Under the pieces are notes generated by a model. That model did not search any database and was not told the DNA's origin. It saw only the letters and a list, made by a program, of their open reading frames with translations. Below are positions 3,919 to 17,264 of a DNA stretch of 64,000 nt, one piece after another. Each line of letters starts with the position of its first letter. Position 1 is the stretch's first letter. The position numbers and the translations under genes were made by a program. Origin of the DNA: Selenomonas ruminantium AC2024 (GTDB lineage Bacteria; Bacillota; Negativicutes; Selenomonadales; Selenomonadaceae); contig NZ_JIAC01000001.1 of NCBI RefSeq assembly GCF_000687995.1, forward strand, positions 2,356,001 to 2,420,000. The letters run 5' to 3'.

Positions 3919-4128
3919 TCAGCCCACCAGTTCGTAACCAGCTTCGGTAATGACCTGCGCAAACTCCGTTTGGGGAATCTCCCGTTCAGCCGTTACCTTA
4001 GCCGTACCGGCTTCCAGATTTACATCCACAGACGTAACCCCCGGCATCTTAGACAGCGCATCCGTTACATGCTTCTGGCAGTGTGCGCACATCATACCTT
4101 CGATTTTCAGTTCTTTTTCCATAGCCAT
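3919..4128 (-). CDS. Putative internally initiated CopZ-like copper chaperone (same frame as the copA 3' end)
   Basis: The last 69 codons of copA encode a whole HMA/CopZ domain ([20 protein letters not shown] onward). Directly upstream inside copA is AAGGAAGAG, about 7 nt before an in-frame ATG at 4128, an arrangement typical of a real start rather than of a linker. The reading is that an ancestral copZ lost the stop codon separating it from copA and may still be translated alone. This parallels, by a different mechanism, the E. coli copA frameshift product CopA(Z). It is inference; no expression evidence exists here. Confidence 0.4.
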
Positions 4129-6486
4129 TTTTCTCTCTTCCTTTCTGTCCATTGCTGCTTCTTCTGCATTGTCCAGCGAAGCTGCCGTCACGGCGTTCTC
4201 CTGCTCCGGCTTAAAATAGCGCAGCCGCAGGGCATTCATGACCACACAGACGCTGGACATGCTCATAGCCGCCGCCCCAATCATGGGGGAAAGCTTTATT
4301 CCAAAAGCGGGGTATAAAATACCTGCCGCTAGTGGTATGCCAATAATATTGTAAATAAAGGTCCAGAAGAGATTTTCCTTGATATTGCGGATTACGGCCT
4401 TGGACAGTTTGATGGCACTTACGGCATCCAAGAGATTGCTGCGGATGAGCACCGCATCCGCGCTTTCCATCGCCACATCCGTGCCAGCACCAATGGCAAT
4501 GCCAATATCCGCCCGGACCAAGGCAGGCGCATCATTGATACCATCGCCAATCATGGCCACCTTATGGCCCTGCTCCTGCAGTTTTGCAATATGGGCTTCT
4601 TTATTAGCCGGGAGCACCCCGGCAATGAATTTCTGCAGGCCTAACCGCCGGCTGACCGCCTTAGCAGTGCGCTCGTTGTCACCAGTAAGCATGATGACAT
4701 CCAGCCCCATAGCGGTAAGTTTGCGGATGGCCTCGACACTAGAGGCTTTTTCCTTATCCGCGGCAGCAATAATACCGGCCAATTCTCCTGCCACGGCAAA
4801 GAACAGCAAGGACTTGCCTTCAGCCGCCCATTTCGCCACCAGCTCACGATGCGGCGAAATATCAATGCCCTGCTCCAGCATAAAATCTTCACTGCCAGCC
4901 AGACAGGGCTTATCCTGAACCTGAGCCTGCAGGCCGCGTCCAACGACCGCCTGAAAGCGTTCTACTTGCAATGGGGAAATCTCTTTACTCTTGGCATAAG
5001 CCAGTACAGCCTCAGCCAGTGGGTGTTCGCTTTGCGCTTCCATCCCCGCCGCCAAAGCCAACAATTCCTGCTCCGTTCTCGTAAACGCTGCCACATCCGT
5101 CACCACCGGTTTGCCCTCAGTGATGGTGCCGGTCTTATCCATAACCACGGTGTCTACACTCTGAGCTACCTCAAGAGCTTCCCCGGATTTAATCAGGATG
5201 CCGTTTTCTGCTCCCTTGCCGGTTCCTACCATGATGGCTACAGGTGTTGCTAGCCCCAGCGCACAGGGACAAGAGATAACCAGTATGGATATCGCAATGG
5301 AAAAGGCAAACTCCACGCTTTCGCCCAGGGCCAGCCAGCTGGCACCTGCCACAACTGCCAACAGGATAACCACTGGCACGAAGATGCCGGAAATCTTATC
5401 TGCCAGTCGGGCCATCGGCGCCTTGCTGGCGCTGGCTTCATCGACCAGCCGAATTATCTGGCTGATGGCCGTATCGCCGCCCACCTTCTCAGCCCGGAAA
5501 TGGATTGCTCCGGCCTTGTTCAAGGTAGCAGAGGTCACACGAGCACCTGCCGCCTTGAATACCGGTAGGCTTTCTCCTGTAATCGCCGACTCATCCACGC
5601 TGGTCTGTCCCGAAAGTACCACGCCATCGGCAGGAATCCGCTCACCGGGGCGCACGATGATTTCATCCCCCACCTGCAGTTCTGCTGCCGGCACGGATAT
5701 TTCCCGCCCCTCGCGCAGGACATTGGCCTGCTGCGGCGCCAATTCCATAAGCCTTGCCAAAGCCGTTCCTGTTTTCCCCTTGGCCCTGGCCTCCAGATAT
5801 TTCCCAACGGTAATCAACGTGACAATCATACCGGCAGACTCAAAATAGAGATTGCGGCTGTATTCTTCCACCAGCGCCCAATCGCCATGCCCCATTCCAT
5901 AACCAATGCGGAACACGGCAAAAGCGCCAAACAGCGCCGCCGCCATGGAGCCCATCCCCACCAGACTGTCCATGTTGGGCGCACCCTGCAGGAGATTCCG
6001 AAAACCATTGATATAGTATTTCCGGTTCTCATACATAATGGGCAGAATCAAAAGAAACTGCGCAAAGGAAAAAGTCAGCGCATTTTCCACACCGTCAAAC
6101 AATTCTGCCACCAGAGCCGGAACCGGCAGGCCCAGCCATGCCGCATACATTTGATGCATGGCAATATACATAACGGGAAGGAGAAAGAACAACGACCACA
6201 GCAGCCGTTTTTTCAAAGCCGCCGCTTCCTTTTCCAGAGGGGATTCTTCCTTTTGGGGAGCAGCATTTTCCTGTCCTTTAACGCTGGCACCATAGCCGGC
6301 ACTTTCCACCGCCGCAATAATGGTACCTGCATCCAATTTTCCTTCATCATAAGCCAACTGCATGGAATTGGTCAGTAGATTTACGCTGACATCTGCCGTC
6401 CCCTCCAGTTTCGTCACAGCTTTTTCGACTCTGGCCGAACACGCCGAACAGGTCATACCGGTTATGGTGAATCGTTCTTTTTTCAT
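3919..6486 (-). CDS. copA: Copper-exporting P1B-type ATPase with N- and C-terminal metal-binding domains
   Basis: An 855-aa heavy-metal ATPase that pumps Cu(I) out of the cytoplasm. In order: HMA domain (GMTCSAC, C13/C16), eight-helix membrane core, actuator loop (TGES near 304), the CPC motif in helix 6 (C406-P-C408), the phosphorylation site DKTGT (D450) and the hinge motif GDGINDAP. Unusually, a second complete HMA domain follows the last helix (GMMCAHC, C800/C803). It is joined by a charged linker that contains an internal ribosome site and ATG, so this end could also be made as a separate CopZ chaperone. The gene follows csoR by 7 nt and shares its copper-responsive promoter. CPC and paired HMA domains favour Cu(I) over Zn/Cd. 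Confidence 0.95.
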
Positions 6487-6493
6487 AAGCCCA

Positions 6494-6814
6494 TCACCTC
6501 ACCATCTTGCTGAGCAGCATCACGAGTTCATCTACCACCGCATCGTCCCCCTCGCGAATGTCGTGAACCACACAGCTCTTGATATGCTGGGACAGCAGTT
6601 CCTTATTAAAAGCTCCCAAAGCCGCCTGAATGGCGCTGACCTGGGTCATGATATCCACACAGTAACGGTCGTCCTCCACCATACGGCGGATGCCCCGCAC
6701 CTGTCCTTCAATCCGGTTGAGCCGGGAAACAAGGCTTTTGTATTCCTTGCCATCCTTATCGCGGTGCTTATGCTTTACCTCTCCGCAACAACAACCGCCA
6801 TCTATTCTATCCAT
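6494..6814 (-). CDS. csoR: CsoR-family copper-sensing repressor
   Basis: A 106-aa all-helical repressor of the CsoR/RcnR family (DUF156). The Cu(I) ligands of CsoR are present as C52, H77 and C81 (YC...HIKSC). The family core [18 protein letters not shown] is intact. The N-terminus carries an extra metal-like cluster (CCC at 8-10, then HKH). It would release DNA when Cu(I) binds and derepress itself and copA. GGAGGT precedes the ATG. The operator with two mirror-image boxes lies 33 bp upstream. Nickel- or persulfide-sensing relatives exist, but the C-H-C set and the copA neighbour point to copper. Confidence 0.93.
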
Positions 6815-6846
6815 AAATCCACCTCCTGGGAATCTTTCTCAAAAAC

Positions 6847-6894
6847 ATACCCCTTATGGGTATACATAATATACCCATAAGGGGTATCTGTCAA
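6847..6894 (-). promoter_or_regulatory. csoR-copA promoter with double CsoR-type operator
   Basis: The minus strand has TTGACA (6889-6894) and TATTAT (6866-6871), 17 bp apart. Two copies of ATACCCCTTATGGGTAT lie in opposite orientation (6847-6863 and 6871-6887). They are perfect reverse complements with a 7-nt spacer, one filling the -35/-10 spacer and the other just downstream of -10. The G/C-tract-with-A/T-core form matches known CsoR operators. Sites and promoter are read directly; CsoR binding is inferred. Confidence 0.88.
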
Positions 6895-6909
6895 GCCACA
6901 GCTGACAGA

Positions 6910-6957
6910 AAAAGACGGCGGGAATCAGGACGCTCATCCAAGTTCCCGCCGTCTTTT
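6910..6957 (-). terminator. Terminator after the PAP2 gene
   Basis: 15-bp perfect arms AAAAGACGGCGGGAA (6910-6924) and their complement (6943-6957) enclose an 18-nt loop, with T runs on both strands. It lies between the PAP2 gene and the copper promoter and insulates them. Confidence 0.85.
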
Positions 6958-6997
6958 CTTGATAAAGTTTCGGCATTTATTCAGTTCAATAATATTC

Positions 6998-7516
6998 TTA
7001 GCTAAGTTTATGTCCCTGCCAGCGCCAGACGATATAGCTTCCCAGAAAAGCCAGCAGCATTCCCGTCAGCACATCCGAGGGATAATGGACGCCCACATAC
7101 AAGCGGGAGAAGGCCATCAACAGCGCAAAGATAAACACGGCATAGCGGATGGCCTTGCGCTCCCGCGACCACAGGAGAATCCAGGCTACGGAAAAGGAAG
7201 ATACCGTATGGACAGAAGGAAAGGAATACGACTGTGGCGGCTTAACGAGCGGCACAAGTTCTGCTATATCCAAAAAGGGCCGGGGACGCATCACGAGATT
7301 TTTGATGACTTCTGCAACGCCAACACAAAGCAGGAAGGAAAGCCCTGCCACCATTCCCAGCTTGCGGGTTTTCGGATAGATGAGCAACAACAGCAGCAAA
7401 ACCAGCCAAATAAGCCCATTGTCCCCCATAAGAGTAATGGCGCAGATTATGTCCGTCAGCCAGTCGCAGCGTATCGAATCCTGTATAAACAGCAAAATCA
7501 TCTGGTCTAAAGTCAT
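6998..7516 (-). CDS. PAP2-family membrane phosphatase (undecaprenyl-diphosphatase-like)
   Basis: A 172-aa integral membrane protein with five or six helices. All three acid-phosphatase signature motifs are visible: K-x6-RP (KNLVMRPRP), PSVH (usually PSGH; the active-site His is kept) and SR-x5-H-x3-D (SRLYVGVHYPSD). Proteins of this size and order, like BcrC and YwoA, remove a phosphate from undecaprenyl diphosphate so that the wall lipid carrier can be reused. A phosphatidylglycerophosphatase role is also possible. The ATG at 7516 has GGGAGG at 7522-7527; an upstream in-frame start lacks such a site. It is a single gene between two terminator regions. Confidence 0.85.
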   Translation of the reverse strand: MTLDQMILLFIQDSIRCDWLTDIICAITLMGDNGLIWLVLLLLLLIYPKTRKLGMVAGLSFLLCVGVAEVIKNLVMRPRPFLDIAELVPLVKPPQSYSFPSVHTVSSFSVAWILLWSRERKAIRYAVFIFALLMAFSRLYVGVHYPSDVLTGMLLAFLGSYIVWRWQGHKLS

Positions 7517-7624
7517 AGAAACCTCCCGTAATTTCCTAACGCCATTTTCGAAAGTCATTATTATAGCATGAAAGCGGATACATTTCTATGACAGATGTGA
7601 CGCAAGCAGGGAAAAACCACCGTC

Positions 7625-9268
7625 TCAGGCGAAGTATTTCTTTTCGTCCAGCATATTGTTCTCCCTGGCCAGAATGAAGGTGGTGGCAATATTGGCACTT
7701 TCATTGCAGACACCGTTGAACATGGCCGCAATGGGCTCGACACAGAGAATGACCGAAATCGCTTCCGCGGGAACGCCCACCACCGTAAACAGATAGGCGA
7801 TACAGATAATACCGCCGCAGGGAATGGGCGGTTTGGCAATGGCCATAATGCACACGGAAACCCACAAGGTAAGGAAAAGGCTGGTTGACATGTCAATCGC
7901 ATACACCCGCATCAACATCAGTGTTACCAACGAGAAGAAAATGCAGTTTCCCGCCTTGTTCAGCTGAACGCCTACGGGAATGGAAAAAGCCGCCAGTTTG
8001 GCATCAATGCCTAAGTTCTCCGCGCAGAATTTCAATACAAAAGGCAACCTGGCATGGGAACTGGACACTGTGAAAATCAAGGGGCTTAGCCCCATGATTT
8101 TTCTGGTCATGGAAAAAGGCGTTATGCGGCCAAACAACAGAATAGTCATGGCGCCCACCAGCCAGACCACGGCAACGCCGATAAACAGACCGCCGAACAA
8201 ACCGCTAAAGGTCAGCAGGGATTCAATACCGGTGCTGGCCAAAAGCGATGCCATCGAGAGGAACACCACCAAAGGAATGGCCTTGACGATAACTTTGAGC
8301 GTGACAATGGCGAAGCGGAACACGAAATCAATGCACTCCACCGCGCCTTTGGCTTTGTCCCCCATCTTATTGAGAATCAGACCAAAGAAAATCGCCAGGA
8401 ACATGACCTGCAGAATCTTGTCACCCTTGAAGGGTTCCACCAAATCGCGGGGAACAATGTCAAATACCATATCCTTGAGGGAGCCATACTGAACAGCGGC
8501 GGCATTTCCTGCCGCCGGCGCAATACCGGCCTGCATATAGGACAGGTCACCAGCAAAAAGCAGCAGGCCAAGGCCTAACCCCAGCAGAGCCGTAATGACC
8601 TGCATAAACAGAGAAACGACCACCATCCGCCCCCCAAGTTTTCCGATAAGCGCCGCATCCGAAATATTGGTTATGCCGGCGATAATCGCAAAGAATGTAA
8701 CCGGCGCCATCATCATATGCAGGGCATTCAAAAATACATTGCGCACCGGTGCGATAAGGCTGTCATTGATTGCCTTGATAACATCCGCTCCGAGAAAAGC
8801 CTGCATGAACAGGCCGCAGATACAGCCCAGCACCAGCCCGCTCAGCGTATAAATCAGCTGCCGCTTGGTGGAATCCAGCTCATGCACCTTGATGGTGACG
8901 ATGTTCAGACCATTCTTGCGGACATAACCCATCTTCTGGCGGTTCGTCTTGAGGATGGCCAGTTGATACGCATCCTCCTCGGCTTCGTCTGTCAGTGTTT
9001 CGGTCACGGCAGGAATGGGATTGTACTCTGCCCCTCTTGCCATCAGGCGCAGTTCCGTATCGCCCCACATGCGGCGAAGCGCCATGCGGATGGAAAAATC
9101 CGCGCCTGCCTCCATGCCTTTTTGCAGGCGAAAAAACATTTCTTCCAGAAGCAGCTGGGCCAAGGTGATTTCCCTTGCGGGAATCCCGCGCTGCTTCAAT
9201 TCTTCAGCTAAAGCCTGCCGCCCCTGACGCAGTTCCGGTGCGGTAATGGTACGAATATTTTTTTCCAT
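7625..9268 (-). CDS. Degenerate RsbW-like ATPase domain fused to a DAACS-family symporter
   Basis: A 547-aa protein. Residues 1-125 are soluble and resemble an RsbW/SpoIIAB-type HATPase fold: a helix matching the N-box region but lacking the Asn (LLLEEMFFRL), two strands, and the family's closing segment YVRKNGLNIVTIK. From about 135 the chain is a dicarboxylate/amino acid:cation symporter with eight helices and two hairpins. The serine-rich hairpin is present (SSSHARLP, 401-408). The usual NMDGT motif reads NKAGN (437-441), and the D-x-x-D-x-x-R-T-x-x-N substrate motif of helix 8 reads EPIAAMFNGVCN, so the substrate is probably not aspartate or succinate. It is the last gene of a STAS/PP2C cluster. 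AGGATG precedes ATG 9268; an earlier in-frame start would overlap the previous gene. Confidence 0.75.
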   Translation of the reverse strand: MEKNIRTITAPELRQGRQALAEELKQRGIPAREITLAQLLLEEMFFRLQKGMEAGADFSIRMALRRMWGDTELRLMARGAEYNPIPAVTETLTDEAEEDAYQLAILKTNRQKMGYVRKNGLNIVTIKVHELDSTKRQLIYTLSGLVLGCICGLFMQAFLGADVIKAINDSLIAPVRNVFLNALHMMMAPVTFFAIIAGITNISDAALIGKLGGRMVVVSLFMQVITALLGLGLGLLLFAGDLSYMQAGIAPAAGNAAAVQYGSLKDMVFDIVPRDLVEPFKGDKILQVMFLAIFFGLILNKMGDKAKGAVECIDFVFRFAIVTLKVIVKAIPLVVFLSMASLLASTGIESLLTFSGLFGGLFIGVAVVWLVGAMTILLFGRITPFSMTRKIMGLSPLIFTVSSSHARLPFVLKFCAENLGIDAKLAAFSIPVGVQLNKAGNCIFFSLVTLMLMRVYAIDMSTSLFLTLWVSVCIMAIAKPPIPCGGIICIAYLFTVVGVPAEAISVILCVEPIAAMFNGVCNESANIATTFILARENNMLDEKKYFA

Positions 9269-9279
9269 ACAACAACATC

Positions 9280-10482
9280 CTATTTGAACCATTCCGACAA
9301 GCGGCTGGCTGCAGCCAGCGCCTTATCCATATTGGGGAAGAGATATTTCCGGGTTTCCTCCACATGGAAGGCTTTGAGCTCCGAAGCAATCTGCACGTGT
9401 TTCATGGGGAAGAGTGCCCCCCGCAACAGGCCGAAGTAATCGCAGAGCGCCTTGATTTCCGCCAGCTTCTGCGCATCTTCCGTCTCGAAGTAAAGGGACA
9501 GGAGTTTATCCCAGAAGCGGAGCATATTTTCCTGATTCATGCCATGAACCTGCTGGCGGGTGGCACTGCCACTGTAACGTGCATGGAAGGCACCGGCGGC
9601 CAAATCGAAAATCGGATGGCCATAGCCGATATCCGCCATATCAATGACCACGATTTCTCCCTGCTGATACATCACATTGCCAGCATGGAAATCGCAATGC
9701 ACCATGGTGGAGCGATTGGGAACCGCCGCAATCAGCTTCTTGAGCAGTCCCGTTTCCTCCTGCGTAAAGGAACCATTCGCCTCCATGCCCTCTGCCCATT
9801 TATTCCAGGTATCCTTGAGGGAGGTAAAGCCCTTCATGCCCTCAATATCCATGCTATGAATGGTCTTGTAGACCTCTGTGAACTTTTCCATGATTTCAGC
9901 AAACTGCTCCGGATGCGCCGTGATGGTCCGCCCTACCGTATCGGCATTATCCAGCATCTCAAAGACTACACCATAGGCTCCATCTACCGTCACCAAATCA
10001 TAGGAAATCGCGGTAGGCACACCGGCCACGAAAGCCTTTTTGGCCAAAGCCATCTCCTGCTTGATTTTTTCCAGCGGAACACCTGCCGCATACAGCTTGA
10101 CGATATTTTCAACACCAATGCGGTAGACGGTGCTGCTGCGGCCTTTGCCTACCACAGTGGCTCCCGTCACGTCAATCTCCCGCAGCGCCTTTTCGACCTG
10201 CATAAGGTCTGTAAATTTCGTCATCGCAAAGATATCATAGACATCACCAGATACGTTGCGAATGGTAAGCTTGTTTTTCCCCATCATTTTCTGCACACTG
10301 AGCAGCAGACGCAGGCCGGCACTGGAAATATAGTTAAGCTCTTTGGCATCAAAAGCAATCTCCATGCCGGGATTCGCGGCCAGAAGTTCTTCCACTTCCG
10401 CCTGCAAGGCAGGTGCATTCTGGGCATTTATTTCCCCTTCCAGAAAAATGATGCAGGTATTATTTCCTTTCGCTGTTTTCAT
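9280..10482 (-). CDS. STAS domain fused to an aminoglycoside-phosphotransferase-like kinase
   Basis: A 400-aa cytoplasmic protein. Residues 5-105 form a STAS (anti-sigma antagonist) domain with the phosphorylatable serine region YISSAGLRLL (S53/S54). Residues 110-400 form a kinase-like fold of the APH/choline kinase type (the group modelled as TIGR02172): glycine-rich loop GKGRSS, catalytic HCDFHAGN (D264, N269) and metal-binding IDMADIGYG. It could act both as a partner in serine phospho-switching and as a kinase for a small molecule or protein. AAAGGATGG precedes ATG 10482, one nucleotide after the phosphatase stop codon, so the two are translationally close. The kinase substrate is unknown. 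Confidence 0.8.
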   Translation of the reverse strand: MKTAKGNNTCIIFLEGEINAQNAPALQAEVEELLAANPGMEIAFDAKELNYISSAGLRLLLSVQKMMGKNKLTIRNVSGDVYDIFAMTKFTDLMQVEKALREIDVTGATVVGKGRSSTVYRIGVENIVKLYAAGVPLEKIKQEMALAKKAFVAGVPTAISYDLVTVDGAYGVVFEMLDNADTVGRTITAHPEQFAEIMEKFTEVYKTIHSMDIEGMKGFTSLKDTWNKWAEGMEANGSFTQEETGLLKKLIAAVPNRSTMVHCDFHAGNVMYQQGEIVVIDMADIGYGHPIFDLAAGAFHARYSGSATRQQVHGMNQENMLRFWDKLLSLYFETEDAQKLAEIKALCDYFGLLRGALFPMKHVQIASELKAFHVEETRKYLFPNMDKALAAASRLSEWFK

Positions 10483-10483
10483 A

Positions 10484-12688
10484 TCAATCCATCCTTTCTG
10501 ATGAACCGTAATAAACAAGTTCCAACATGGTAATATCATCTGATGGAGCGGCCTCGCCAGCGTATTCGCGAACAGCCTGATATACGCTCTCTATCCCCTG
10601 TTCCGCACGGCCGCCAGCCGCAGATAATGTCCTGAGCAGACGCTGCTCGCCAAAGAACTTCCGCCCCTCATTTCTAGCTTCTGTAACACCATCCGTATAG
10701 AGGAAGATGGCATCGCCTTCTTGCAGATGCAGCCGCTCTGTGCAATATGGCAAATCCTCCAATGCCCCCATAACGGGATGCTGCGCCTTTTCCAGATAAC
10801 GGTATCTGCCGGATTGGCGGATAAGCGGAGGATTATGCCCGGCATTCACATAGATAAATTCCCCACTAAGGGTATCGAGCACGCCGCAGAAAACCGTCAC
10901 AAACATGTTCTCCTTATTGCTCCGAATCAGGGAGTTATTCGTCTTGACGAAAACATCGCCCAACCGTTCCGGAGAACCGGCGAACAGAAGATTCTCCTTG
11001 AGCATGGTCTTGGCAATGACCATAAAGAGCGCCGCTGGAACGCCTTTATCGGAAACATCTGCCACCGTGATGGCCAGATGGTGCTCATCCAAAAAATAAA
11101 AATCGTAGAAGTCCCCGCCTACTTCCCGGGCAGGCTTCATCATAGCCGCCAAATCAAAATCCTTCCGCTTAGGAAAAGGATTCTGCCCAGCGGGCAAAAG
11201 TCCCGTCTGAATACGGGTGCCCACGGAAAGCTCCGTCTCGATACGCTCCTTTTGCGCGGTGGTTTTAGCCAGCCTTTCCATGGAGGCCGTAAGCTCCTCC
11301 GTCATATGATTGAAGCTTTCCGCCAACGTTTCCAGCTCATCCCCCGTCTTGAGGTATAGCTTGCGCTGCAGATTACCTGCCGCAATCTCCCGGACGCCAT
11401 CCGTGAGGAAATTAATCGGCACCGCAAACCCTCTGGCCATCTGCACATTGCGCTTTAGAATTAGATACAAAAGCATGACAAAAAGAATTACCACGCCAAC
11501 CACAATGAACAAAAAATAATCCCGCAGAACCATGCTGTACTGCTTAAAATCAGCCACCACAGCGGCCTCAGCCTGGTCCCCCTTAGCGGTGATTCCCGCC
11601 GTGTCGATAACGGTACCCAAGCTCCACTCCGACCCTGGCAAGGGAGCATAGGCCAGATAGTATTCGATGCCGTCAGCCTCCACCAACGCAATGCCCTTCT
11701 CCCCGGCTATCATGCGTTCCGCCGTGGCAGCCAGCGCCGAATTTTCAGCCTGCCGGAGATTCTTATTCATGCCATCCGCCGCAAACGCTCCCTCCTGTTT
11801 GGGCGAAATGATGACCACACCTTCCTTGTCCATGACAAAGCTGAATTCGGAATCATCCACCTCATCACTCTGCATGCGCCGGCAGATATAATCTGTGTCA
11901 ACATCCGCCACCACTACACCGGCAATCCCCTCTGCATCATGATAAGGCGCGCAGATGGAGATACATTTCTTGCCATACGAAGCCATATACGGCTCCGTAA
12001 ATATCAGCTTGCCAGCCTTGACAGTTTCCTGATACCACTCCCTGCTCAGGTAATTGTAACTGCTGCGCAAAGGTTCATGACATAAAAGCCCGCCCATTTT
12101 ATCCCCATCCAGCATGTCCATGCGAATGAGGTAGCCATGCTTAGATGCAGCCAAAATACTGCCGTAATACCGATGGCTGACATGCTTGAATTCATTCTCA
12201 ATGGCTGACACCGCAGCAATCTCCTGCTGCAGCTTCGGCGAAATGCCCTGCTTTACCAACTCTGGACTATAGTACACATAAGGGACATAATCCGCAACTT
12301 CCTCATCATTGGCCACGGGCAGGGTCTTCGGTATATACGTCTCTCTGTGCTGCAGAATATCCCCCATCTTATTGGCCAAAAGTTCCACACTATACGAGCA
12401 GCCTAGCAGCAGTCTCTGTACCAGACGGGCACGCAATACGGTTGTCTCCGTCAGCCCGTCCTTCACTTCCTCCTGCACGGCCGCTTCCACATAGTCCCCT
12501 ACTTTTTCGGAAAGAGCCCGGTTCTGCTCTTGCAGTTCGCTTTGCAGGACAAATATACTGGCCAGGAATATTCCGCCCATGACCACGAATGTCACACAGC
12601 TGCCCCAAAGAGCCGTGCGCAGAATACGACGGTAGATGTTCATCTTCCGCTGAAAAATCAGTTCCAGAAGTATCTTTATCTTCTTCAT
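10484..12688 (-). CDS. Membrane sensor with SpoIIE-type PP2C serine phosphatase domain
   Basis: A 734-aa protein: N-terminal membrane helix (about 26-50), a large extracytoplasmic sensor of Cache type (about 51-385, with DMLDGDKMGG and a VVVADVDTDYI strand), a second helix (about 389-411), HAMP (about 412-470), a coiled coil and a SpoIIE/RsbU PP2C domain (about 500-730). PP2C metal motifs are present: REVGGDFYDF, VADVSDKGVPAAL, NAGHNPP, YTDGVTEA and APSDDITM. It should dephosphorylate a STAS protein in response to an outside ligand; the two STAS domains encoded on either side are the obvious substrates. It overlaps nothing and follows the small STAS gene by 12 nt. Confidence 0.92.
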   Translation of the reverse strand: MKKIKILLELIFQRKMNIYRRILRTALWGSCVTFVVMGGIFLASIFVLQSELQEQNRALSEKVGDYVEAAVQEEVKDGLTETTVLRARLVQRLLLGCSYSVELLANKMGDILQHRETYIPKTLPVANDEEVADYVPYVYYSPELVKQGISPKLQQEIAAVSAIENEFKHVSHRYYGSILAASKHGYLIRMDMLDGDKMGGLLCHEPLRSSYNYLSREWYQETVKAGKLIFTEPYMASYGKKCISICAPYHDAEGIAGVVVADVDTDYICRRMQSDEVDDSEFSFVMDKEGVVIISPKQEGAFAADGMNKNLRQAENSALAATAERMIAGEKGIALVEADGIEYYLAYAPLPGSEWSLGTVIDTAGITAKGDQAEAAVVADFKQYSMVLRDYFLFIVVGVVILFVMLLYLILKRNVQMARGFAVPINFLTDGVREIAAGNLQRKLYLKTGDELETLAESFNHMTEELTASMERLAKTTAQKERIETELSVGTRIQTGLLPAGQNPFPKRKDFDLAAMMKPAREVGGDFYDFYFLDEHHLAITVADVSDKGVPAALFMVIAKTMLKENLLFAGSPERLGDVFVKTNNSLIRSNKENMFVTVFCGVLDTLSGEFIYVNAGHNPPLIRQSGRYRYLEKAQHPVMGALEDLPYCTERLHLQEGDAIFLYTDGVTEARNEGRKFFGEQRLLRTLSAAGGRAEQGIESVYQAVREYAGEAAPSDDITMLELVYYGSSERMD

Positions 12689-12700
12689 TGCCAGCCGCTC

Positions 12701-12997
12701 CTAGACGCCCTTAACTTCCATCAGATACTGAAAGCCTGCCATCCGAAAAATTTCCAGCACTTCAGGAGAAAGATTGATGATGGAAATTTTACGGTCTGCC
12801 TCTTTTTGTACCGTAAGCATGACACGCAGTCCGGCACTGGAAATATACATTAGCTCCCGGGCATCGAACACGAGTGCAGAATCCGCTTGGCACTTTACGA
12901 TTTCTCTGATTTCCTGCTGAATATCTGCCGCATTCTGCGCATCAATATCTCCCGCAAGAAAAATGGTAAGGATGCCCTCACTGTTCTCACTTCGCAA
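12701..12997 (-). CDS. STAS-domain anti-sigma factor antagonist-like protein
   Basis: A 98-aa single STAS domain related to RsbV and SpoIIAA, with the conserved serine region YISSAGLRVML (S53/S54) and DIDAQNAADIQ. It is nearly parallel in length and numbering to the STAS half of the kinase fusion two genes downstream, which suggests a duplication. The start is TTG at 12997 with AAGGAGAGAGAGG upstream; no ATG is available. It is the first gene of the four-gene cluster. No sigma factor is encoded nearby, so its target is more likely the ATPase-like domain on the transporter. Confidence 0.88.
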   Translation of the reverse strand: MRSENSEGILTIFLAGDIDAQNAADIQQEIREIVKCQADSALVFDARELMYISSAGLRVMLTVQKEADRKISIINLSPEVLEIFRMAGFQYLMEVKGV

Positions 12998-13224
12998 AGC
13001 CTCTCTCTCCTTTCCGTCAAAGTATAATATCTGGCCCCGCTATCAGCTAACAGGACCTGCACCTTCCTGTATCATAAAACGCTTAACTAAAGAATTCTCC
13101 CCGATAGCAGACGAATCCCCCTTGCCCCAAAAATTATTTTTATTTATCTATTGATTTTCATTCTCAATGATGCTATATTATATACAGGCTTTCGTTAAAG
13201 CTCTCCTAAAATATAATACACAGC
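12998..13224. other. Upstream region of the STAS cluster
   Basis: About 225 bp with no gene that can be supported. It is AT-rich and must contain the promoter of the STAS-PP2C cluster. No -35/-10 pair clear enough to report was found. Confidence 0.4.
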
Positions 13225-13261
13225 AAAGAACCGGACGTACTGCTCATACGTCCGGTTCTTT
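13225..13261 (-). terminator. Terminator after the chemoreceptor gene
   Basis: Perfect 15-bp arms AAAGAACCGGACGTA (13225-13239 and 13247-13261) with a 7-nt loop, 38 bp after the stop codon of the chemoreceptor. Confidence 0.88.
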
Positions 13262-13298
13262 GTCTTGTCATACAGGAGATGAAAACTCCTGTTCCATA

Positions 13299-14861
13299 TC
13301 AATTTGTGCGGAACTTGTTCACGCTTTCTTTCAGGGAATCCGAGAAATTGGACAGCTCCGTACTGGAAGCGGCACATTCCTCCGATACGGCGCTGTTGTC
13401 CGTAACCACGCCCAAAATATCCGTGGACAGGGAATTGACAGCTTCCATCTTCACCTGCTGAGCAGCGCTCTGTTCTTTCAATTTGCGGAAGGCTTCGTCA
13501 ACCACCTCTGTATTCTGACCGGTGCTGGCTAGGGATTCGGCAGCGGCATTGACCACTTGCGTGCCTCTGTCAATCGCCGACAGGGCCCGGCTGATGAGCT
13601 GCTGAATATTTTGCGTAGAATCCGCCGACTGTTCTGCCAGCTTTCTGACATTTTCTGCTACTACCGCAAACCCCCGGCCAGCTTCCCCAGCCCTGGCTGC
13701 CTCAATGGAAGCATTCAGCGACAACAGCGCCGTCTGTCCGGTGATTTCATCCAACGTGCCCAATATGGAGCGGATTTCATTGGAAGCATCACTGATTTCC
13801 TGCATGGCAGTAACCACATTATTCATCTGTTCCTGCGTTGCCGCAATGCTGTTCTTTGTCTGCATACGAGCCGACAGAGCATTGTCCACCAGCGTATCCA
13901 CTTTGGCATTTTCTTCTATGGCTTCGCCAATCTTATTCTGCAAATCCTGCACCGTTTCATTCTGGCTCATGGCACCTTCCGCCAGGCTCTGGGAAACCTT
14001 GGACACTTCCCCAGCACTAACGGCCACCATGCTGGCCATTTCCCCCATGTTCTGCATCTCCTGACAAAGGGTCTGGCGAATATGGTTGATATTCTGCTGA
14101 ATCGGTGCGTAATCCCCAATGTACTGCATATCCGTAGTGCTGACCAAATCGCCGCCCGCCATGGTATCCAGATTTTTTTCGATATCCTTGACATACCCTA
14201 GAATTTCCTGACGCATTTCGTTCAAGAGTTTGTACAAAGCACCAATTTCATCCTGACGGGGATAGCTGAATTTCTGCGACATATGGCCCTGTGCCAGTTG
14301 ATTGACGCTGCCTTCCAATGCAGACAGGGGCTGTACCACCCGTTCTTCAAACGTATTCGTCACCCGCTTGAGAACCAGATAAACTGCGGCAATGAAGGCC
14401 AGCAACAGAATGTAGAGAATCACCGCCATCACATCCACCATAGTCTGGGCCGCATCCACCATGGCATTGGTCTTGTCAAAATAAGTCTCACTGACTTCCA
14501 GCAGATGGGCTGGATTCTTCGACTGCTGATATTCGGCAATGGCCGGTTTCACCTCACCCTGCCAATATTTTTCCACCTCATCCCGCTTGGCAGGAAAACT
14601 GCCAATATGCATACGGCTGCCCATCCCGGAAAGCAGTCCTTCAATCTTGGCGGTAGTCTTGCTGGCATCCGCTCCGGCTAAAACCTGCTTCACAATACGC
14701 TGACTACCGCCACGCACAACACCGGCATCATTGACCAGTGCCACATAGCTGGTGAACAGGTACAGGCTGAAGCCCACAATGGCCACCACAGCCACCACCA
14801 TGATGAAAACCCGCTTTAAGAGCGTACGAATCACTCCAGCAATTGTTTCTTGTCCATTCAA
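13299..14861 (-). CDS. Methyl-accepting chemotaxis protein
   Basis: A 520-aa transmembrane chemoreceptor. Helix 1 spans about 17-37. The short extracytoplasmic domain (about 38-140) starts with a NIT/PilJ-like segment ([21 protein letters not shown]). Helix 2 spans about 141-163, followed by HAMP (about 165-225) and the long signalling coiled coil. The hairpin tip reads [20 protein letters not shown], the invariant region that contacts CheA and CheW. There is no C-terminal CheR pentapeptide. The ligand cannot be told. It has its own terminator; promoter and ribosome site lie in 14862-14935. Together with the fliK-like gene it supports a motile organism. Confidence 0.94.
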
Positions 14862-14936
14862 TTTTCACACTTCCTTTTCATCCAATTTATCCTTATCATC
14901 TTATAAAATCCCCATTTTGACATATTATAGCAGGAA

Positions 14937-14981
14937 AAATCTCACCATGTTGTGACTCATGTTACATTCATGGTGAGATTT
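14937..14981 (-). terminator. Terminator after napA
   Basis: Perfect 13-bp arms AAATCTCACCATG (14937-14949) and complement (14969-14981) with a 19-nt loop, 10 bp after the napA stop. T residues follow on the minus strand. Confidence 0.8.
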
Positions 14982-14990
14982 CATTGCTGT

Positions 14991-17264
14991 TTACGAAGCC
15001 TTGCTAATCTGTACCGCACATACCTTATATTCTGGTTGTTTGGAACCAGGGTCAAAAGCATCCAAGAGTACCTTGTTAATCAAGCGGTCATCTTCTTTAT
15101 CGTGGAAGGACACATACACCAGCCCTGGCATAGGCTTGCCGCGTCCATTGATTTTCGCCTTGAACTTGCAGGTTGCCCGGCGGGAGGTAATGTTGACCAA
15201 GTCGCCATCGCTGATACCTAAACGCTTGGCATCTTCTTCGTTGATTTCCACGTACATCTCCGGTGCCGCGTTTTTGAGTTCCGGCACATTTCCTGTCATG
15301 GTGGCGGTGTGCCAATGCTCCAGCATGCGGCCTGTGGTCAGGAAGAAGGGATATTCAGCATCCGGCATCTCCTGTGCATCAATCTGCGGCCGTGCATAGA
15401 TAACCGCGCGATTGTTCTTCCGGCAGTAGAACTTAATGCCCTCACCCTTTTTCACATAAGGGTCATAACCTTCGGCGTAGCGGATATAGGTCTCCGGCGA
15501 ATTGTCATCCGGCACCGGCCAGGTGAAACCGTGACCTTCCCGCAGACGCTTGTAGGACGCCATCTGCATATCCGTGCCTGCCTGGCATTTCTGATATTCT
15601 GCCCATACCTCTTCCGGGGTCTTAAAGGGCACCAGTTTTTCAAAGCCCATGCGTTTGGCAAAGTCAATGATGGTATCCAAATCCGGCCGAGCTTCTCCTG
15701 GCGGGTCCACCGCTTTGGCGATATGGTTGGTACGGCGCTCGCCATTGCCGTAAACGCCTTCCTTTTCCATCCAAAGAGCTGCGGGCAACACCACATCCGC
15801 CAGTTCCGAAGTACGGGTGGGATGATAGGTTTCCGACACCACCAGGAATGTCTTTTCCATGCCGGGACGATAGTAATTGAGATTGGGCAGGGACTGACCA
15901 GGATTGGTGGTCATGACCCAAAGGCATTTGAGGTCGCCGGTAACCGCCGCCTTGAACATTTCCAAAGTATGGTATCCCGGCTTAGAGGGCAGCGTTCCCT
16001 TGGGTACCCCCCATATTTCTTCCAATTCGTTGCGGTGCTTTTCATTGGCCACAAAGCGATGCGCTGGCAGGATATGGGATAGACCGCCGGTCTCACGGAC
16101 ACTGCCACAGGCACTGGGCTGCCCGGTAAGTGAGAACGGCGTATTGCCCGGCGTACAGATTTTACCCGTCAGCAGGTGAAGATTATGCACCAGATTGTTG
16201 GCCCATACACCACGGGTACGCTGATTAAAGCCCATGCACCACATGGACATGGTCTTTCGGTTCGGGTCAGCAAACAGTCTGGCCACTTCGCGAATGGTTG
16301 CCGCCGGAATTCCGCAAGCTGTCTCGACCTTTTCCGGCGTGTAATCCTGCAGGAACGCCTTGTATTCATCATAGGTCAGCTTATCACTGGCCCCCTTCAT
16401 AAATTCCGTATGGTCGGCAATGAATTTCTCATTGGTCAGCCCTTCCTCAATGATGACATAAGCCATGGCATTCATCAGCGCCAAATCACGGCTCGGAATG
16501 AAGGGCAGATAATAGTCCGCAATATCAGCCGTACGGGTCTTTCTGGGGTCAGCTACGATAATCTTGACATTTGGGTCGCTATTCTTCCGGTCAATAATGC
16601 GGGAGAACAGTACCGGATGCGCTTCGGCAGAATTAGAACCAATCAGGAAAAAGGTATCTGCCGCCTCAATGTCAGCATAAGTACCCATGGGTTCATCAGC
16701 GCCGTAGGTAGTCACAAACCCGGCCACGGCACTAGCCATACAGGTACGCGGATTGCCTTCCACATTATTGGTGCCGATACCAGCACGGAATATCTTCTGC
16801 ATGGTGTAAGTTTCTTCGGCATAAGTCTGACCGGAACCATAGAATCCCACAGAGTCCGGTCCATACTTCTCAATGGATTCCTTGAACTTCGATACCACCA
16901 GATTCATGGCTTCATCCCAGCTGGCCTCCACCAATTTGCCGTCTTTCCGAATCAGCGGATGCAGCAGTCTGTCCGGGGTATTCATAATCTTGGGCAGCAA
17001 GATGCCTTTAACGCAGAGTCTGCCCTTATTTACCGCACAGTCCGGGTCACCCTTTACGGCCACAATCTTGCCGCCGGTAACCCCTGCCAGCACACCACAC
17101 CCGGTGCCGCAATAGCGACAGACACCTTTGACCCATTTTTCCGCATCTTTCTGGTCAACCGGGCCTTTATGGGTATCCCGCTTCGTTCCGCAGCCTGCTG
17201 TAAACATGGCCGCTGAAATAGCCATGGCCTTCAAAAAATCTCGTCTGGTAAACTTCATATCCAT
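14991..17264 (-). CDS. napA: Periplasmic nitrate reductase, molybdopterin catalytic subunit
   Basis: A 757-aa molybdoenzyme reducing nitrate to nitrite outside the cytoplasmic membrane. A Tat signal opens the protein (TRRDFLKAMAIS). One [4Fe-4S] cluster is held by C49, C52, C56 and C84 (CRYCGTGC...RLC). The Mo ligand is C175 in NPRTCMASAV. The C-terminal molybdopterin dinucleotide-binding domain starts near 640 (TTGRMLEHWHTATMTG). Arrangement and length fit NapA rather than formate dehydrogenase, which uses Sec or another context. ATG 17264 follows GGAGGG. It is the last gene of a napD-napG-napH-cytochrome-napA operon. No napB is present, so electrons probably pass straight from the membrane cytochrome. 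Confidence 0.93.
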   Translation of the reverse strand: MDMKFTRRDFLKAMAISAAMFTAGCGTKRDTHKGPVDQKDAEKWVKGVCRYCGTGCGVLAGVTGGKIVAVKGDPDCAVNKGRLCVKGILLPKIMNTPDRLLHPLIRKDGKLVEASWDEAMNLVVSKFKESIEKYGPDSVGFYGSGQTYAEETYTMQKIFRAGIGTNNVEGNPRTCMASAVAGFVTTYGADEPMGTYADIEAADTFFLIGSNSAEAHPVLFSRIIDRKNSDPNVKIIVADPRKTRTADIADYYLPFIPSRDLALMNAMAYVIIEEGLTNEKFIADHTEFMKGASDKLTYDEYKAFLQDYTPEKVETACGIPAATIREVARLFADPNRKTMSMWCMGFNQRTRGVWANNLVHNLHLLTGKICTPGNTPFSLTGQPSACGSVRETGGLSHILPAHRFVANEKHRNELEEIWGVPKGTLPSKPGYHTLEMFKAAVTGDLKCLWVMTTNPGQSLPNLNYYRPGMEKTFLVVSETYHPTRTSELADVVLPAALWMEKEGVYGNGERRTNHIAKAVDPPGEARPDLDTIIDFAKRMGFEKLVPFKTPEEVWAEYQKCQAGTDMQMASYKRLREGHGFTWPVPDDNSPETYIRYAEGYDPYVKKGEGIKFYCRKNNRAVIYARPQIDAQEMPDAEYPFFLTTGRMLEHWHTATMTGNVPELKNAAPEMYVEINEEDAKRLGISDGDLVNITSRRATCKFKAKINGRGKPMPGLVYVSFHDKEDDRLINKVLLDAFDPGSKQPEYKVCAVQISKAS

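Follow-up and report, generated by a model that had tools for sequence, protein, structure and literature searches.

A stretch of 64,000 nucleotides from Selenomonas ruminantium AC2024 (contig NZ_JIAC01000001.1), referred to here as the window, carries a cluster of four genes in which the components of a partner-switching system are combined with a membrane transporter. The genes are all on the minus strand and are separated by gaps of 12, 1 and 11 bp. The first-pass annotation had assigned four minus-strand genes of these families to these positions, and both the coordinates and Pfam agreed. It had also reported that the cluster lacks a sigma factor; Pfam found no sigma-factor family among the six proteins scanned, namely the four cluster proteins and the products of the adjoining PAP2 and methyl-accepting chemotaxis protein (MCP) genes.

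The gene at 12701..12997 (minus strand) encodes a 98-residue STAS protein of the RsbV/SpoIIAA type with a TTG start (PF01740, E 1.4e-14). The candidate phosphoserine lies within YISSAGL, and the phosphosite column of an alignment of distinct STAS domains was serine in 40 of 40. The adjacent gene (10484..12688, minus strand) encodes a membrane sensor phosphatase of 734 residues, identified by Pfam and by its motifs, that consists of a dCache_1 domain (residues 174-359, E 1.1e-19), a HAMP domain (418-467, 2.2e-9) and a SpoIIE-type PP2C domain (534-723, PF07228, 7.3e-48). The SpoIIE metal motifs GGDFYD, DVSDKG and DDIT were all found in this phosphatase (locus label L099). The third gene (9280..10482, minus strand) encodes a 400-residue fusion, STAS-APH, with a STAS domain (residues 7-102, 7.7e-12) followed by a kinase-fold APH domain (residues 109-298, 1.6e-17) that scored 64.5 bits with PF01636 against a gathering score of 23.2. 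Its kinase motifs were present (the loop GKGRSSTVYR, HCDFHAGN and IDMAD). The fusion also gave weaker matches to choline, homoserine and methylthioribose kinases, and failed the cut-off of the NCBIfam model TIGR02172 (Fb_sc) with 119.1 versus 228.2 bits.

The fourth gene (7625..9268, minus strand) encodes a transporter of 547 residues. The start was corrected to 9268 from the longer open reading frame (ORF) start at 9292 because relatives align from MEKN and an 11-bp gap remains. The SDF (DAACS) transport core occupied residues 141-535 (7664..8848, minus strand; PF00375, 8.6e-62) and was preceded by an N-terminal domain, designated NT, at residues 1-131 (8876..9268, minus strand). A SulP core was not matched by Pfam at E 0.1. 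The AlphaFold (AF2) model of the full-length transporter had a pLDDT of 83.8.

The first-pass annotation had proposed that the N-terminal part of the transporter is an RsbW-like ATPase domain. Pfam gave no PF13581 match to the NT of the window protein at E 0.1, HATPase_c_2 was found at E<=0.01 in just 2 of 44 NT relatives, and a RecX_HTH2 match (0.0093, below the cut-off) was taken as chance. A comparison of the NT profile with the PDB by sequence alone gave nothing meaningful (best E 0.3). The assignment rests instead on profile-profile comparison and the predicted fold. When 36 NT domains were aligned by hhalign against four HATPase domains from other proteins, the match had a probability of 98.1% and an E-value of 8.3e-14; the four were chosen since the iterated NT profile had found them and two are partly degenerate, while three match PF13581 above cut-off independently and the remaining one, an ABC fusion, falls below it. 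The AlphaFold model of residues 1-137 (pLDDT 87.7) had a HATPase-like fold, for which Foldseek ranks 1-15 were all anti-sigma-factor entries (SpoIIAB, RsbW, UsfX and a SigF/anti-sigma complex), with a best E of 1.4e-4. The ten best VIA matches (Z 10.7-11.9) were likewise all of the anti-sigma class, UsfX, SpoIIAB and RsbW scoring 11.9, 11.5 and 11.0, and lower values were obtained for SiaB (9.4), LvrC (9.0) and the first histidine kinase (7.5). As modelled, NT is a HATPase fold of the RsbW/SpoIIAB type.

This part of the proposal was borne out, but the activity implied by it was not. The window NT has neither the N-box Asn nor the G1 Asp, and its G2 glycines are missing, so that all three ATP-site motifs are lost. 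Across 44 aligned NT members, no sequence retained the N-box Asn, the G1 Asp or the first G2 glycine, and 6 retained the last G2 glycine. A wider set comprised 88 distinct SDF proteins that carry the domain (NT-SDF proteins), after NT-SDF ORFs shorter than 450 aa, HATPase stretches below 85 aa and near-repeats had been left out. None of the 88 had the G1 Asp, two had the N-box Asn (the L204 pair) and none had both. The same two residues were both kept in 7 of 7 full-length stand-alone HATPases, in 4 of 4 fused to SpoIIE, and in the one STAS-APH-HATPase and the one HATPase-DJ-1 fusion, although the first G2 glycine was replaced in 3 of these 13 controls. Three of ten HATPase rows classed as alone (L176, L187 and the end of L193) had been set aside as cut fusion pieces; all three lack the Asn and the Asp, two leave the locus end, and the L176 frame is interrupted by a stop. 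The YNP loop of NT was conserved, with its Asn and Pro kept in 44 of 44 members, and in 82 and 85, respectively, of the wider 88.

Judged by these residues, NT is a pseudo-ATPase. Since its nucleotide-binding residues are gone, NT cannot act as the kinase that normally phosphorylates such STAS proteins; it probably serves a STAS protein as a dock, the kinase activity lying outside NT. No catalytic HATPase serine kinase was found in the window cluster, where the sole HATPase-fold domain is the one without ATP motifs. The seven PF13581 matches in the window genome were a SpoIIE-HATPase (L109, at about 1.967 Mb of G000:C1), one MATE fusion and five histidine kinases. Apart from the SpoIIE-HATPase, no intact RsbW-type kinase was found in this genome, a divergent kinase beyond the reach of the search being possible. 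As the cluster is without an intact HATPase, its STAS proteins would therefore be served by the L109 kinase in trans or by the adjacent APH domain. A STAS-APH-HATPase fusion with intact HATPase motifs (L200, 6038-7618), located downstream of STAS and SpoIIE genes, hints that the STAS-APH and HATPase domains cooperate. The window genome has a second STAS-APH gene (L113, 5440-7862), which is followed by that of a DUF3298 protein, with no SDF in view.

The transporter protein was matched in at least 147 of the 151 genomes of the window's GTDB family, many by the SDF core alone. The NT profile was found in 75 of the 151 at E 0.001 and as a strong match (E<=1e-20) in 57; it was also matched in 60 of 300 genomes of the class and 11 of 398 of the phylum, stand-alone and phosphatase-fused HATPases being counted among these. 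NT-SDF genes also occurred outside the family (L192, L194, L197-L199, L201 and L204), with the SDF confirmed by Pfam except in L198. A one-off fusion or assembly oddity was ruled out by the 57 family genomes with strong matches together with the NT-SDF genes of other families. Of the eight SDF genes in the window genome, three are NT-SDF paralogs. The paralog at L046 has its own STAS and dCache-SpoIIE genes and that at L047 has none within 5 kb.

The neighbourhoods of the SDF genes were compared in loci of at least 6 kb, including loci fetched later, with 88 distinct NT-SDF and 33 NT-less SDF proteins. NT-SDF ORFs below 480 aa, other SDF ORFs below 380 aa and proteins with repeated last 180 residues were left out, and the 88-protein sets of the motif, core-residue and neighbourhood counts overlap and are not identical. 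A STAS, SpoIIE or HATPase gene was within 5 kb of 37 of the 88 NT-SDF genes versus 3 of the 33 NT-less genes (Fisher p 4.4e-4, indicative as are those that follow); two of the three exceptions, L043 and L045, resemble each other and belong to the window's clade. When a flank of at least 2.5 kb on both sides was required, the counts were 34/79 and 2/28 (p 3.8e-4), and when the same strand was required they were 29/88 and 3/33 (p 0.01). An earlier, smaller count gave 20/49 versus 3/33. A HATPase-bearing gene was nearby in 13 of 88 NT-SDF loci, two of which (L059 and L205) have degenerate ABC fusions, versus none of 33. STAS was the sole same-strand partner-switching neighbour at L075, L077, L082, L150, L151, L195 and L202. 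The median number of SpoIIE genes was 6 in genomes with a strong NT match (n=57) versus 2 in those without any (n=76), the 18 weak-match genomes being set apart and kinship among genomes ignored; the window genome had 9 SpoIIE matches.

Several loci contained a complete module. L210 has a STAS gene, an intact HATPase, an NT-SDF and a dCache-HAMP-SpoIIE phosphatase, while L084 and L230 have STAS, HATPase (intactness checked in L084 only), two NT-SDFs and a phosphatase. The order in L192/L193 is SpoIIE-HATPase, STAS and then two NT-SDFs, and that in L201 is STAS, SpoIIE-HATPase and NT-SDF. The presence in complete modules of a separate kinase and a dead copy on the carrier supports a division of roles in which the live HATPase is the kinase and the dead one is a port.

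These observations led us to a reading, to which we give even weight for and against, that the cluster is a partner-switching module with the membrane carrier as its output. An external ligand would act on the dCache phosphatase, which would in turn remove the phosphate from the STAS protein. The bare STAS protein would dock on the pseudo-HATPase of the carrier, while its phosphorylated form would be unbound. Docking would alter the activity of the carrier or its partners, in a direction (opening or closing) that is not predictable. Because the docking domain is dead, the re-phosphorylation of STAS must come from elsewhere, either from the APH domain of STAS-APH or from the L109 SpoIIE-HATPase. 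The STAS domain of STAS-APH may bind at this dock as well, which would deliver the APH enzyme to the carrier.

A number of findings weigh against the carrier as output. The proximity of a STAS gene was not significantly enriched at close range (within 300 bp on the same strand, 14/88 versus 2/33, p 0.23). Of the 37 NT-SDF genes with a partner, 8 have it on the opposite strand only and L205 has just the ABC fusion. The p-values are only indicative because the loci are related and were drawn from match lists. The four-gene order is not unique to this strain, and NT-SDF and partner-switching genes recur together more widely, but a single other genome (L039 = L048, the same contig) preserves the exact order intact. 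In L041/L050 the STAS-APH frame is split, the phosphatase is shortened and the first STAS is absent; the short contig L040 contains only the last two genes; in L211 the frames are broken and the order is rearranged; and L042/L212 has a carrier fragment of 326 aa without NT. Moreover, in L043-L045 STAS-APH lies directly before an NT-less SDF of the window clade (6060-7340 and 7340-8599 in L043 and L045), so the pairing of STAS-APH with a carrier of this clade needs no dock. L043-L045 are contigs of metagenome-assembled genomes, two of them (L044 and L045) titled Prevotella, and mis-binning is possible. Lastly, no partner-switching gene is located within 5 kb of 51 of the 88 NT-SDF genes. This last count, together with the absence of NT from L043-L045, favours the view that NT is vestigial or purely structural, serving trimer stability or targeting, and that its operon partners act elsewhere. 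The enrichment of the neighbourhood, the conserved YNP loop, the larger number of SpoIIE genes in strong-NT genomes (with the same disregard of kinship) and the apparently separate capture and decay of such domains on ABC ATPases speak against a vestigial domain, and we consider it improbable.

The residues of the transport core raise a further objection. We take N310, D312, D394, R397, T398, N401 and D405 (GltPh numbering) to be the positions that bind substrate or cation in GltPh. The window clade keeps two of the seven canonical residues (N310 and N401). The other five, D312, D394, R397, T398 and D405, were changed in all six members examined, four with NT and two without, and D394 was replaced by Ala in five and by Ser in one. 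All seven residues were kept in 19 of 33 NT-less SDFs and in none of 88 NT-SDFs, of which 39 keep five or six and 8 keep none. L191 (5959-13940) has five tandem NT-SDF genes in which most canonical SDF residues are changed. Because the same changes occur in all six clade members, save for the one Ser at D394, they suggest selection rather than decay. The window-clade core may thus not transport, which also counts against the carrier as output, and since it has lost most canonical residues a role as co-sensor has to be taken seriously as an alternative. The flow would then be reversed, with the SDF core as a sensor or co-sensor that holds or frees STAS through the pseudo-HATPase according to its ligand occupancy; the balance of phosphatase and kinase would be tuned for other outputs, and transport would be secondary or lost. 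There is a precedent in E. coli, where DcuS, a sensor kinase, is reported to be under the control of the SDF carrier DctA (PMC5703999). However, no second output (sigma factor, cyclase or response regulator) was found among the six scanned proteins, and the 39 NT-SDFs with five or six residues speak against this scheme, which we regard as unlikely but as the strongest competitor.

Another possibility is that STAS-APH is a small-molecule kinase that uses its STAS domain to dock on the pseudo-HATPase and phosphorylates the imported substrate, while free STAS competes for the dock under the control of the phosphatase. STAS-APH adjoins the window-clade SDF in the window, L039/L048, L040, L041/L050 and L043-L045 and is near the broken carrier copy in L211; the intact APH motifs and the weaker matches to small-molecule kinases are also consistent with vectorial phosphorylation. 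On the other hand, it has no known substrate, the carrier fragment of L042/L212 has no STAS-APH in view, the pair of L043-L045 exists without the dock, and in L200, where STAS-APH is joined to a HATPase whose motifs are intact, no SDF gene is in view. This scheme appears distinctly unlikely. The active RsbW-type serine kinase on the carrier that residues 1-125 had been taken for has in its favour the match of the fold to SpoIIAB/RsbW, but it is contradicted by the loss of the three ATP-site motifs in the window protein and by the lack of any NT-SDF among 88 with both the N-box Asn and the G1 Asp, and we give it almost no credence.

Beyond the first-pass annotation, the same kind of domain was found fused to other classes of transporter. 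At about 1.967-1.972 Mb of G000:C1 (L109, 5855-11375), a STAS gene is followed by genes for the dCache-HAMP-SpoIIE-HATPase, a 268-aa protein without a match and a MATE exporter. The exporter bears a C-terminal HATPase in which the Asn and Asp are kept and the first two G2 glycines are lost. ABC-type ATPases of about 372 aa that carry a HATPase-like stretch at the C-terminus were found in L059 (7861-8976), L205 (5104-6228) and L206-L208, and the Asn and Asp were lost in 5 of 5; the stretch was detected by an in-house profile, Pfam matching only L059 of three scanned, below cut-off. The L205 fusion has a permease and an SBP_bac_3 binding protein as neighbours, and the L059 fusion adjoins SpoIIE, STAS and NT-SDF genes. 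A HATPase with both Asn and Asp is fused to a DJ-1/PfpI domain in L209 (1854-2846).

In a tree of the HATPase domains, built on few columns with 68 of the 88 SDF rows retained, the SDF-fused domains lay to the same side of a branch with an SH-aLRT of 87 (not starred). The ABC-fused domains formed a group (99) next to two stand-alone kinases (84). The branch of the MATE row was very long and the origin of that fusion is therefore unsettled. There are apparently at least two separate fusion lineages of dead HATPase domains. It is conceivable, though we incline slightly against it, that the STAS/HATPase pair serves generally as a plug through which membrane transport is controlled without transcription, in which HATPases that have lost catalysis were joined separately to SDF carriers, ABC importer ATPases and a MATE exporter as phosphorylation-controlled ports for STAS proteins.

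Upstream of the operon, a terminator-like hairpin (13224..13262, minus strand; 17 pairs, 8 of them G-C) lies between the MCP gene and the cluster; its T-run is weak, and the scan gave 16 such sites versus a shuffled mean of 7.0. The PAP2 gene begins 108 bp downstream of the transporter gene. Rfam found no RNA family at 6900-15000. The genes at 3919-6814 presumably encode a copper P-type ATPase behind a small CsoR-like repressor, which they resemble.

The cluster has features in common with several known systems. In the RsbU-RsbV-RsbW system, as outlined in PMC8256260, a PP2C phosphatase dephosphorylates the serine of a STAS protein and the bare STAS protein binds a HATPase-fold partner. The window cluster resembles this and the SpoIIE-SpoIIAA-SpoIIAB system (PMC8256260) in its STAS protein with a conserved serine, its PP2C phosphatase and its HATPase-fold partner, but its HATPase is dead and fused to a carrier, the kinase is apart and there is no sigma factor. 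SiaABCD of Pseudomonas aeruginosa likewise has a sensor PP2C, a phosphorylated small partner (SiaC), a kinase and a non-sigma effector, although the effector, SiaD, is described as a diguanylate cyclase bound through a stalk (PMC8457831, PMC7647112), in place of a carrier that bears a pseudo-HATPase; the window sensor scored 66 bits with the SiaA equivalog, for which the cut-off is 700. In the SLC26/SulP carriers with a C-terminal STAS domain, a partner-switching fold is fused to a secondary carrier (PMC8256260), and the window protein is the mirror image, bearing the HATPase half N-terminal to an SDF core.

The DctA/DcuS and DauA-DctA pairs of E. coli are further cases of an SDF carrier working with a signalling protein, DctA setting the state of a dicarboxylate sensor (PMC5703999). 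DctA, however, contacts a histidine kinase via helix 8b, and the account of it in that source mentions no fused HATPase-type domain. In the current model of Chlamydia RsbU/RsbV1/RsbW, a PP2C that responds to a metabolite, alpha-ketoglutarate, drives partner switching as the window phosphatase might, but the target in that model is sigma-66 or some other protein, with no carrier fusion (PMC8256260). A HATPase/RsbW domain fused to a carrier was not found described in the open-licence literature, print elsewhere being possible. Within that literature, partner switching, SDF carriers and carriers with STAS domains are known, and a dead anti-sigma kinase domain on SDF carriers within partner-switching operons was not found there.

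In the papers cited here, the outputs of partner switching are gene regulation or a second-messenger enzyme; if the proposed reading is true, carriers would be added to them. A kinase fold would have been reused as a dead docking port. The Selenomonadaceae would gain a fast, ligand-driven control of uptake, and the many SpoIIE phosphatases of their genomes would have a candidate role.

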